The position numbers and the translations under genes were made by a program. A model generated the notes under the pieces. It did no database searches. It was not told where the DNA came from and saw only the letters and a program-made list of their open reading frames with translations. Below, piece by piece: positions 11,182 to 57,858 of a stretch of 60,369 nt of DNA (positions within the stretch are counted from its first letter, which is position 1; every line of letters begins with the position of its first letter). Source of the DNA: Acidobacteriota bacterium (GTDB lineage Bacteria; Acidobacteriota; Terriglobia; Terriglobales; Acidobacteriaceae); NCBI GenBank assembly GCA_021785495.1, contig JAJYFB010000003.1, positions 1-60,369 on the forward strand, read 5' to 3'.

Positions 11182-11280
11182 GCGTCTCGATCCTTGCCCA
11201 CGCTTTCGTTTTGAATCTCCGATTGAAAGAAGTATAAGCTGGCATCATGATTGCGTGGATGAGAAATCAAATTTCCAGTC

Positions 11281-11394
11281 AGGGCCAACGCATTTGGATT
11301 TCGCATTGCCGCCCGGAACAGCTTGGAAAGGGCACGGCTGAAGCCGTGCCCATTCCAAACAAAATCATCCCGCAAGCTGCAATGGGTTTGCCCT
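11281..11394. repeat. MITE-like nested palindromic element, copy 1 (114 bp, inverted relative to copy 2)
   Basis: Reverse complement nearly identical to 38760-38873; ends AGGGCCAACGCATTT / GGTTTGCCCT; central GGGCACGGCTGAAGCCGTGCCC palindrome. Confidence 0.9.
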
Positions 11395-11562
11395 GCATTT
11401 CCAGTTTGATTGTATGGATACTTCCCCATCAAGCGATCGCCACGCGGCGGATGCGCCGGTTTTCGGTTTGGACTCGACAGCCCGTGGTTTCATTCATTGG
11501 CCGAGCGAAACCGCGGACGCATGGTGTCCCTGGGCAATGCGTCAATCCATCCGGGCGGAGCG

Positions 11563-37358: not shown

Positions 37359-37359
<1 letters not shown>
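36943..37359 (-). CDS. Hypothetical membrane-anchored protein
   Basis: Single TM YDVMVTLILAFLFVTPRLW plus extracytoplasmic domain; ORF abuts serS stop. Confidence 0.6.
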
Positions 37360-38714
<1,355 letters not shown>

Positions 38715-38759
38715 TTACCCGATGGCCACATCGATCCGACCGTGCCGCTATGGATCGCC

Positions 38760-38873
38760 AGGGCAAACGCATTTCAGCTTGCGGGATGATTTTGTTTGGA
38801 AAGGGCACGGCTTCAGCCGTGCCCTTTCCAAGCTGTTTCGGGCGGCCATGCGAAATCCAAATGCGTTTGCCCT
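38760..38873. repeat. MITE-like nested palindromic element, copy 2 (114 bp)
   Basis: Perfect 15-bp TIRs AGGGCAAACGCATTT / AAATGCGTTTGCCCT; central perfect palindrome TTGGAAAGGGCACGGCT-TC-AGCCGTGCCCTTTCCAA. Confidence 0.92.
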
Positions 38874-38928
38874 GACGAAAAAATTGGCTCGGGATCGTCC
38901 TGCCCCGTTGCTGGCGTAAAATGATGGC

Positions 38929-39504
38929 ATGGCGACCACTGTGGAGCGCGACCGCTATCTCTTCGGGGCTCTCGAAAGCAGCGCAAAAAACCGCCTCAAG
39001 GTGCGCGAGACCAACTACGGCATCGAGGCGCCCGAAGGCGTCATCCTGACCACCCTCGATTTCGCGATCAACTGGATTCGCAAGAACTCCGTCTGGCCGG
39101 TGACCTTCGGTCTGGCCTGCTGCGCCATCGAGATGATGTCCACCGGCGCCGCGCGTTACGACATCGCCCGCTTCGGCGCCGAGGTCTTCCGGCCCTCGCC
39201 GCGCCAGTCCGATCTGATGATCGTGGCCGGCCGCGTCTCGCAGAAGATGGCTCCGGTTCTGCGCCGGCTCTACGACCAGATGCCCGAACCCAAGTGGGTG
39301 ATCTCGATGGGCGCTTGCGCCACGTCAGGCGGCGTCTTCAACAACTACGCCGTCGTGCAGGGCGTCAATCAGGTCGTCCCCGTGGACGTGTACGTTCCCG
39401 GCTGCCCGCCCCGGCCCGAACAGCTTCTTTACGCCATCTCGCTCCTGCAGGAGAAGATGCAGCACGAACGGCGCAGCCTGCTGAAGACCCTCAACCTCGG
39501 TTGA
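38929..39504 (+). CDS. nuoB: NADH-quinone oxidoreductase subunit B
   Basis: [63 protein letters not shown]. Confidence 0.97.
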
Positions 39505-43429: not shown

Positions 43430-43483
43430 GGCCGGAGTCTCGCAAAACGGACGGGAAAGAGTCAAATAGGGACGCAGGGACCA

Positions 43484-43535
43484 GGGCAAACGCCTTTGGA
43501 TTTTGCATGGCTGGCAGGAACAGCCTTGAAAGGGA
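43484..43535. repeat. MITE-like element, copy 3 (diverged half)
   Basis: AGGGCAAACGCCTTTGGATTTTGCATGGCTGGCAGGAACAGCCTTGAAAGGG aligns to the outer half of copies 1/2; right end not found. Confidence 0.75.
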
Positions 43536-43693
43536 ACAGCTTCGCGCCGCGCCGAAAGAGAACGCGAGGCGCAAGGCCGATGGGGTCTTTGCTGGTCCGG
43601 TCTTCGGAGGAGATGCGGCGCTCGCGCTGGTTTGGCTGCGCTGCTCGCCGCCAGTTATGATGATGCTTCATGGGAACCGCGCCGCCAATCGCG

Positions 43694-55533: not shown

Positions 55534-57858
55534 ATGGCGATAAAAAAGACGGCAAAAACGGCGGCTGCGAGCGAATCCGCAGCGAAGACAAAAAAGACAA
55601 AAACGACCGTGGTTACGGAAAAACCGGCTGCGGCCAGAAGCAAGAAAAATGCCGCTGGCGAAGAAACCGTTGCGAAAGCGGCCCGGCGGAGCGCGGCCAA
55701 AACGCCGGCGAAAACCACACTGAAGACGACAGCGAAAACGTCGAAGGACGCCGCCAGCAAAGCAAAGGCCGCCACAAAGGCGAAGACCGCGAAACCGCGC
55801 AAAGCCAAGGCGAAGATCGAAGAGCCTGCCGAAGTGGAGGCGATTGCGACTGGCGAGGCTGCGGCCGAAGATCCATCGTTGCTGCGCGAAGCTGTGAACT
55901 CTGGCGCAATCGATCAAGCGGAAGACGACGTGATTCTCGCGAGCGAAGACGCCGAGGAGGACTTCGACGACGAGGCGAGCGACGAAGAGGATGTGGACGA
56001 CTCTGCTGGACTCGAAGAGGAAGCGGACGCCGCACTCGACGAAGAGGACGGCGGCGAAGCGGAAGAGGATGAGGCCGCGCCGCGTCCCGCAGCAAAGCTC
56101 GAACGTTTGCAGAAGATTCTTTCGCAGGCGGGCATCGCCAGCCGCCGCCACGCCGAGGAGTTGATCGCCGCCGGCCACGTGATGGTGAATGGCCAGATCG
56201 TGACAGCGCTCGGCTCGAAGGCCGATCCCGCGCGCGATCACATCCGCGTGGACGGCAAGCTGTTGCACGGAGCCGAGCGGCATCGCTACTTCCTGCTGAA
56301 CAAACCACGCGGCTACGTGACCACGCTGAACGATCCCGAGGGACGGCCCACGGTGATGCAGTTCTTCGCCGGTGCGCGCGAGCGCGTCTACCCCGTCGGG
56401 CGGCTCGACTTCCAGAGCGAGGGCCTGCTGCTGCTGACGAATGACGGCGAGCTGGCCAACCAGCTTACCCGCGCCGGATCGGGCGTTGAAAAAACCTACC
56501 TGGTGAAGGTGGCCGGCCAGCCCAGTGAGGAGCAACTGGAAAAACTGCGCGCGGGTGTGGCCATTGAAAAGGGTGCGCCCGGATCGGCGCGTGTGCGCAC
56601 GGCGCCGGCCGTCATCCGCCAGGTGCGCGCGGGCGAGAATCCCTGGTTCGAGGTGGTGCTCATCGAGGGCCGCAACCGCGAGTTGCGCAAGATGTTCTCG
56701 GCCATCGGCCACTTTGCCGAGAAGATTCGCCGCGTGGGCTACGGGCCGCTCGCGCTCGATGTGGAGCCGGGCAAGATGCGCGAGCTGACGGCCGAAGAGG
56801 TCGAGGCGCTGCGTCGCACCGCCGCCGGCAAGATGAAGCCGCGCCGCCTCAAGACCACGCTGATGCTTCCGAAGGAGGCCGGCATTCCGGCCGAGATGCG
56901 CGCACAGTCGCGCACGGAGAAACGCGGCCGTCGCGACTTTGCCCGCCGCGAATCCGGCCGTTCTTTCGACCGGCCCGCTCCACGCGAAGACCGCGGCGAA
57001 GGCCGTTCCGAGCGGCCCTTTGCGGGCAATCGGGAGTTTCGCGGCGGCGGCAAGGCCCGCCCGGAGTTTGGCGGCAACAAGCCGTTTGGGCGCGGAAAGC
57101 CCGGCTTTGAGCGGCGCGATCGCGGCCCCTTCCAGCCGCGCAACGAGGAATTTGGAAGAGAGTCGAAGGGCCGCAATGCGTTTGGCGGCGAGCGGCGGCA
57201 GAACTTCGGCGAACGGCGGCCGAGCCCTGGAGACAGACCCCGGCGCGAAGGCGGCGAACAACGATTCGACAGAGGCTCACGCCCGCCCTTCAAGCCCAGC
57301 GGCCAGCGGCCGGCATGGAAACGGAACGGCGAGGCGCGGCCGCAAGGCGAGTTCAAGCCGCGTGGTGAATTCCGTCCACGCAGCGAGTTTCCACCGCGTG
57401 GAGAGTCCCGCGCGCGCGAGGACTTCAAACCGCGAAGTGAATTCAAACCGCGCAGGGACTTCAAACCGCGTGGTGAATTTCAACCGCGCAATGCGGCGAA
57501 GCCACGCGGAGAATTTCCGCCTCGTGACGACTTCAAGGCGCGCAGCGAGTTCAAGCCGCGTGAGAATTTCAAGCCGCGCCGTGAGCCCGATGGCCGGCCG
57601 GAAGGCGCACGCGGCGCAGGCTTCGGCAAGAGCGGTTCTTTCGGCAAGAGCAGCGGCTTCGGCGGCGGTAAGCCGCCCTTCGGAAGCAAACCTTCCTTCG
57701 GCGGAAGGCCAGGCTCTTCGGCTAAACCGGGCTTCCAAAGCAAGCCGGGCTTCAAGCGGAAGCCAGGAGGCTCTGGAAACTTCGGCGGCAAAGGCGGTGG
57801 GGCAAAACGCGGCTTCTCGCGGCCCGGAGCGCAACGCGGCGGCTGGAAGCGCAGTTGA
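55534..57858 (+). CDS. RluB/RsuA-family pseudouridine synthase with long disordered N- and C-terminal extensions
   Basis: LQKILSQAGIASRRHAEELIAAGHVMVNGQ; VYPVGRLDFQSEGLLLLTNDGELANQLT; EGRNRELRKMF; K/A-rich and D/E-rich N-terminus; R/F/G/P-rich C-terminus. Confidence 0.93.
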   Translation: MAIKKTAKTAAASESAAKTKKTKTTVVTEKPAAARSKKNAAGEETVAKAARRSAAKTPAKTTLKTTAKTSKDAASKAKAATKAKTAKPRKAKAKIEEPAEVEAIATGEAAAEDPSLLREAVNSGAIDQAEDDVILASEDAEEDFDDEASDEEDVDDSAGLEEEADAALDEEDGGEAEEDEAAPRPAAKLERLQKILSQAGIASRRHAEELIAAGHVMVNGQIVTALGSKADPARDHIRVDGKLLHGAERHRYFLLNKPRGYVTTLNDPEGRPTVMQFFAGARERVYPVGRLDFQSEGLLLLTNDGELANQLTRAGSGVEKTYLVKVAGQPSEEQLEKLRAGVAIEKGAPGSARVRTAPAVIRQVRAGENPWFEVVLIEGRNRELRKMFSAIGHFAEKIRRVGYGPLALDVEPGKMRELTAEEVEALRRTAAGKMKPRRLKTTLMLPKEAGIPAEMRAQSRTEKRGRRDFARRESGRSFDRPAPREDRGEGRSERPFAGNREFRGGGKARPEFGGNKPFGRGKPGFERRDRGPFQPRNEEFGRESKGRNAFGGERRQNFGERRPSPGDRPRREGGEQRFDRGSRPPFKPSGQRPAWKRNGEARPQGEFKPRGEFRPRSEFPPRGESRAREDFKPRSEFKPRRDFKPRGEFQPRNAAKPRGEFPPRDDFKARSEFKPRENFKPRREPDGRPEGARGAGFGKSGSFGKSSGFGGGKPPFGSKPSFGGRPGSSAKPGFQSKPGFKRKPGGSGNFGGKGGGAKRGFSRPGAQRGGWKRS

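Follow-up and report, generated by a model that had tools for sequence, protein, structure and literature searches.

Insertion sequences of the ISAs1 family, together with the MITEs derived from them, are a well-known type of mobile element, with CAGGGC...GCCCTG ends and 10-bp target duplications and, in the MITEs, a short and gene-less interior. The lengths of ends and duplications are general knowledge for this family, and the ISAs1-family element of a relative, G077, described below, agrees with them. A comparable case is the Nezha MITE of cyanobacteria, which Zhou and co-workers, as cited in the review PMC10969869, are said to have described in 2008 and which is reportedly a short element with terminal inverted repeats (TIRs) mobilized in trans. 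A second system for comparison is that of the REPs and REPINs (BIMEs) with their RAYT genes (Bertels and Rainey 2011, PMC3116915), and in Acidobacteria the tyrosine transposases with flanking inverted repeats have been termed 'TIRYT' (Di Nocera et al. 2013, PMC3733652).

The window analysed here is the whole 60,369-nt stretch from an acidobacterial MAG (G000; 2.94 Mb in 218 contigs), and it carries a palindromic element between serS and nuoB. This element is very probably an ISAs1-type MITE filled with a RAYT-class REP palindrome and transposed in trans, present at serS/nuoB as a passenger of a rearrangement junction or an assembly join. It shares with ISAs1-family elements and their MITEs the ends, the 10-bp duplications and the short gene-less interior, and its genus harbors full-length ISAs1 elements whose ends are the same or nearly so. 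Unlike ISAs1-derived MITEs, its interior is a REP-type palindrome and not a deleted ISAs1; it resembles the insertion sequences over no more than their terminal 14-17 bp. The interior resembles REP/REPIN-RAYT systems in its 20-bp palindrome core, its high copy number, its inverted doublets and the occurrence of the same palindrome class at similar distances on either side of RAYT genes of the genus; unlike those systems, it would have travelled inside a DDE-type MITE that is flanked by target duplications. Such a combination with a REP-type filling is unusual: two kinds of miniature mobile DNA, a DDE-type MITE and a RAYT-type REP, are combined within a single unit, in a phylum that has received little study. 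A palindrome that lacked an explanation becomes an element whose ends are known and whose engine can be tested.

Structure and copies of the element

The window copy extends over 116 bp at 38759-38874 (plus strand, A-end on the left), is gene-less and has perfect TIRs, as a MITE does. The original prediction had proposed 114 bp with perfect 15-bp TIRs; the repeats at 38760-38774 and 38859-38873 are indeed perfect, but these ends were too short, one additional C/G base extending each repeat to 16 bp. The resulting CAGGGCAAACGCATTT lies at 38759-38774 (plus strand), identical to both ends of the ISAs1-family element of G025, and at 38859-38874 when read on the minus strand. The anticipated 36-nt palindrome, with its perfect 17-bp stem and 2-nt loop, was confirmed by direct reading at 38796-38831, and contains the 20-bp REP-type core GGCACGGCTTCAGCCGTGCC at 38804-38823. 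The RNA fold of the element reached -67 kcal/mol (z = -8.5) and was equalled in stability by none of 200 shuffles, which, with copies of 88-100% identity across the genome, argues against a chance palindrome.

Two further copies had been predicted in the window. The inverted one, placed at 11281-11394, was found at 11280-11395 (minus strand, opposite orientation) and is 95% identical, so that its description as near-identical was fair; its TIRs are imperfect (AGGGCCAACGCATTT / AGGGCAAACCCATTG) and its hairpin stem has one mismatch. It is flanked by the target-site duplications aatttccagt (11270-11279) and catttccagt (11396-11405), which match at nine of ten positions. The half copy, placed at 43484-43535, does exist, but it is decayed and its limits are 43482-43541 (minus strand, 83% over 60 nt), comprising the B-end, or right-hand half, and the start of the palindrome.

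In the whole of G000, similarity searches recovered about 27 full-length copies with 88-100% identity, plus many halves (E down to 1e-54), while extraction by both ends yielded 30 copies, 24 of them with 114-119 bp and six with 214-247 bp. This is a lower bound, and the true number exceeds 30, because several contigs begin or stop inside a copy. When CAGGGC...GCCCTG was taken as the pair of ends, the 10-mers on the two sides differed at no more than one position in 10 of the 30 copies versus 0 of 870 mispaired flanks, and at no more than three positions in 14 of 30 versus 12 of 870; a clear 10-bp duplication was absent in about half of the copies. Four copies (L011, L012, L020 and L022) presented direct repeats of similar length that were displaced because terminal bases were missing. 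Moreover, an empty site was detected in the relative G019, whose locus L337 aligns through the insertion point of copy L005 with the target present once; L005 was the only informative query among the joined flanks, the others matching one flank only. The suggestion of a dispersed mobile family is thus borne out by at least 30 copies, 10-bp duplications and an orthologous empty site in a relative, and the opposite outcome, few copies at positions conserved across species, did not occur.

ISAs1-family insertion sequences with matching ends

The statement that no transposase was visible holds for the window, but the same genome harbors fragments of ISAs1-family transposase genes. In a profile search, PF13808 (DDE_Tnp_1_assoc) began at C1:11450, some 60 bp inward from an end CAGGGCAAACGCATCT, and at C120:20253-20687 the C-terminal part of NF033564 (transpos_ISAs1; 143.6 bits) ran directly into an end GATGCGTCGGCCCTG. 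The G000 assembly contained no intact ISAs1 copy, only fragments, several of them at contig ends. NF033564 was matched above its cut-off in 14 of 59 genus genomes. The full-length insertion sequence with the same ends that had been sought was found in G025 (L187), an element of 1218 bp with a 384-aa frame (NF033564, 383 bits) and both ends exactly CAGGGCAAACGCATTT; in a second element, of 1177 bp in G077 (L184), the ends are near-identical and the 10-bp duplication is perfect. When the window element was compared with known insertion sequences, the subterminal match spanned just about 17 bp.

These matching ends suggest that resident full-length elements would supply in trans an ISAs1-family DDE transposase, which would recognize the CAGGGCAAACGCAT... 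ends and drive insertion elsewhere in the genome, leaving the 10-bp target duplication. Where a deleted transposase gene might be expected, the interior holds the REP-type palindrome. The mobilization of the MITE by the ISAs1 transposase is, in this form, a reading of the sequences.

Other arrangements of ISAs1-family ends were observed in G000. A derivative of about 495 bp in contig C87 (L045, 1375-1870), internally deleted and retaining both ends (CAGGGCAATCGCAYTT), is an intermediate step from insertion sequence to MITE. At the end of contig C120 (L052, 2034-2075), two ISAs1-family elements form a tandem pair with 10 bp (ctgggccccc) between their ends.

Position of the copy between serS and nuoB

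The window copy is placed between the divergent serS (37359-38705, minus strand; PF00587 and PF02403) and nuoB (38929-39504, plus strand; PF01058). An ortholog or paralog match to nuoB was present in all 59 genus genomes searched, and serS was found beside nuoB in none of the 29 relatives in which about 1.5 kb upstream of nuoB, less at contig ends, was fetched. For example, in the one-contig genome G080 the coordinates of serS and nuoB are 3.82 Mb and 6.36 Mb, a distance of about 2.5 Mb, and in the single contig of G002 the distance is about 0.5 Mb. The gene ancestrally upstream of nuoB, as in G025, had no match in the window genome in a search that was weak, being run without a positive control. 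The window copy has no target duplication, nine of the ten flank positions being mismatched.

This copy is most probably a passenger located at a rearrangement junction or an assembly join. Recombination between insertion sequence copies has been documented to leave no duplications (PMC11708052), and for this locus the chances are about even that the serS-nuoB junction reflects a real recombination between two MITE copies and not an assembly join. The missing duplication and the lineage-specific adjacency of the two genes fit such an event, as does copy L010, whose left and right flanks pair perfectly with the duplications of two other copies at the ends of contigs C79 and C60, a pattern indicating either assembly joins or real recombination at these repeats. 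Against it, the assembly is in 218 contigs and C79 and C60 stop within the element, so that a chimeric join would look the same, and a comparison with 94 ends gave no partner flanks for the window copy. In draft genomes, neighborhoods joined through these copies, including serS-nuoB, may be assembly joins.

Long and short forms

Each of the six long copies (214-247 bp) carries two inverted palindrome cores, and the copy length minus the core-to-core spacing gave 116 every time (spacings of 98, 128, 130, 131, 131 and 131), so that the 116-bp form is the expected product of a deletion between the cores. Otherwise identical 116-bp copies show the loop in either orientation, TTCA or TGAA. The ancestral element probably measured about 247 bp, with two inverted palindromes separated by about 111 bp; as the 20-bp core is near-identical on both strands, the inverted palindromes would double as direct repeats, and a deletion between them would generate the abundant 116-bp form.

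The opposite course, in which a 116-bp form gained a second palindrome and a spacer to become the 247-bp form, would agree with the greater abundance and uniformity of the shorter form. It is nevertheless unlikely, given that the arithmetic is exact in the six long copies, whose spacings take four different values, that both loops occur in otherwise identical short copies, as expected if the deletion can fall on either side of the core, and that inverted palindrome doublets with a spacer are also known from relatives. A change from 247 to 116 bp is accordingly the direction that these observations favor.

The same ends in other phyla

A scan of 84,980 species with the pattern CAGGGCAAACGCAT-N74..104-ATGCGTTTGCCCTG detected 93 miniature elements with the same 14-bp ends, 63 of which presented a target duplication, mostly of 10 bp. 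Their hosts were cyanobacteria, Synergistaceae, Riflebacteria, Spirochaetes, Phycisphaerales, Nitrospirae, Anaerolineae, Bacteroidia and others. Among the 93, only L140, from Acidobacteria bacterium SKS5.bin87, had the interior of the window element; the cyanobacterial CAGGGCAAACGCAT elements have other interiors. A strong short-loop hairpin is not typical of these elements, the best perfect short-loop stem among the 93 being of 8 bp, and the central hairpin of the window element is not an ISAs1 feature.

A 127-bp MITE with ISAs1 ends, its 10-bp target duplications mostly perfect, has undergone a large and recent expansion in the cyanobacterial MAG Gloeocapsa sp. UFS-A4-WI-NPMV-4B04 (L068, L073, L074, L079, L083, L084, L088, L093, L094, L104, L109, L112-L115, L124, L127, L130, L134, L137, L141, L146 and L147). 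In Phycisphaerales, 122-bp ISAs1-ended MITEs (L095, L097 and L139) have as interior a long inverted repeat, AGAGCCGCGACCGTAAGGGAGCG..., with no occurrence elsewhere among the stretches fetched.

The palindrome as a REP-type repeat

The palindrome of the window element is a separate, genus-wide REP-type repeat, which was overlooked in the original prediction. Its core GGCACGGCTNNAGCCGTGCC occurs 135 times in the 2.94 Mb of G000 (up to two mismatches) versus 0 for the reversed control, and the unit TTTTGAAAGGGCACGGCTTCAGCCGTGCC-N-GGGCTTTAGCCCCTGAGGGAY is spread across the genus. For one subfamily of the Y1 transposase genes of the genus, inverted GGCACGRCTTNAGYCGKGCC palindromes of the same class lie roughly -120 to -180 and +113 to +188 from the genes, and 18 of the 32 loci examined have them on both sides. 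G000 itself has such a gene in contig C115, identified as a REP-associated tyrosine transposase (NF047646, 107 bits against a cut-off of 80), with GGCACGRCTTNAGYCGKGCC-class palindromes on each side. The best-scoring Y1 loci, from a different subfamily, lacked such a palindrome.

The window palindrome does not end in the GTAG tag of REP/REPIN systems; its leader is TTTTGAAAG, whereas the RAYT-linked palindromes have leaders such as TTTGTAACAAG or TGTGTCAG. None of the Y1 loci examined was bracketed by the exact TTTTGAAAG-led palindrome, so the RAYT of this variant is missing, lost or unsampled. The shared palindrome class suggests that the filling was acquired from RAYT-linked REPs.

It could be argued that the whole element is a REP or REPIN moved by a RAYT through single-strand transposition, the CAGGGC ends being incidental, since its palindrome class brackets RAYT genes and also occurs in relatives without these ends. 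Transposition of the IS200 type leaves no target duplication. The 10-bp duplications located exactly at the CAGGGC ends, and the same ends and duplications around unrelated interiors in many phyla, make this interpretation very improbable and favor an ISAs1-type MITE with a REP-type filling.

The same REP unit was also found within unrelated ends. In G016, it lies inside a 123-124-bp element with ends TAGAAGCTGTTTCATAACCC/GGGTTATGAAACCACTTCTA, for which eight two-ended copies were recovered (L164-L167 and L347-L350), and in G021 inside a 118-119-bp element with ends GTAGTGGGTCAGTTTGAA (L169, L353 and L357). The unit is surrounded by ISAs1 ends in G000, G018 and G019, by TAGAAGCTGTTTCATAACC in G016 and by GTAGTGGGTCAGTTTGAA in G021; as the G016 and G021 loci were sampled via the palindrome, they indicate that the packaging recurs and do not imply enrichment. 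It is tempting, though still doubtful, to propose that a RAYT-linked REP unit has been repeatedly packaged as MITE filling, that these packages would be two-engine elements, whose ends a DDE transposase could use and which a tyrosine transposase could move as REPs, and that the hairpin was perhaps selected as a transcription insulator making the insertions tolerable. If packaging across unrelated ends holds, it would provide a route for REP spread without the repeat's own transposase and would allow selection of the hairpin filling to be tested directly. As to the flanks of these elements, the TAGAAGCTGTTTCATAACCC-ended MITE of G016 has a possible TA target duplication, and L169 of G021 is flanked by ccatttcaag/ccatttcagg.

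Regulatory potential at serS/nuoB

An effect on the serS and nuoB promoters had been considered possible. Putative -10 hexamers were recognized by eye for serS (TAAACT, 38712-38717, minus strand; the relatives shown have a TAAACT/TAAAAT-like hexamer immediately upstream of serS) and for nuoB (TAAAAT, 38917-38922, plus strand; TAGAAT at the same place in G025). On this by-eye reading, about 40 bp separate the element from each putative -10. It lies beyond both putative -10/-35 regions, on their upstream side, and so is probably outside both core promoters and would be expected in neither transcript. A scan for the sigma-70 consensus upstream of the two genes revealed no consensus promoter, and terminator and promoter scans revealed no such site. 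The only Rfam match of the element was sub-threshold (SpF25, 29.5 against a gathering score of 48).

The very stable fold and the position between two divergent genes would suit a fixed cis-regulatory element or RNA hairpin controlling serS and nuoB, a very improbable explanation in view of the copies elsewhere in the genome, the separation of both genes in all 29 relatives (G080 among them), the place of the copy upstream of both putative -10 hexamers, its missing target duplication and the scan and Rfam results. A conserved regulatory role at this locus is not supported, and the proposed effect on both promoters was not sustained. A conserved cis-regulatory RNA was likewise rejected on synteny, the gene adjacency existing only in this assembly.

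Elsewhere in the window, degenerate direct repeats of 18/36 nt were observed at 57340-57580, within a long ORF at 55534-57858.
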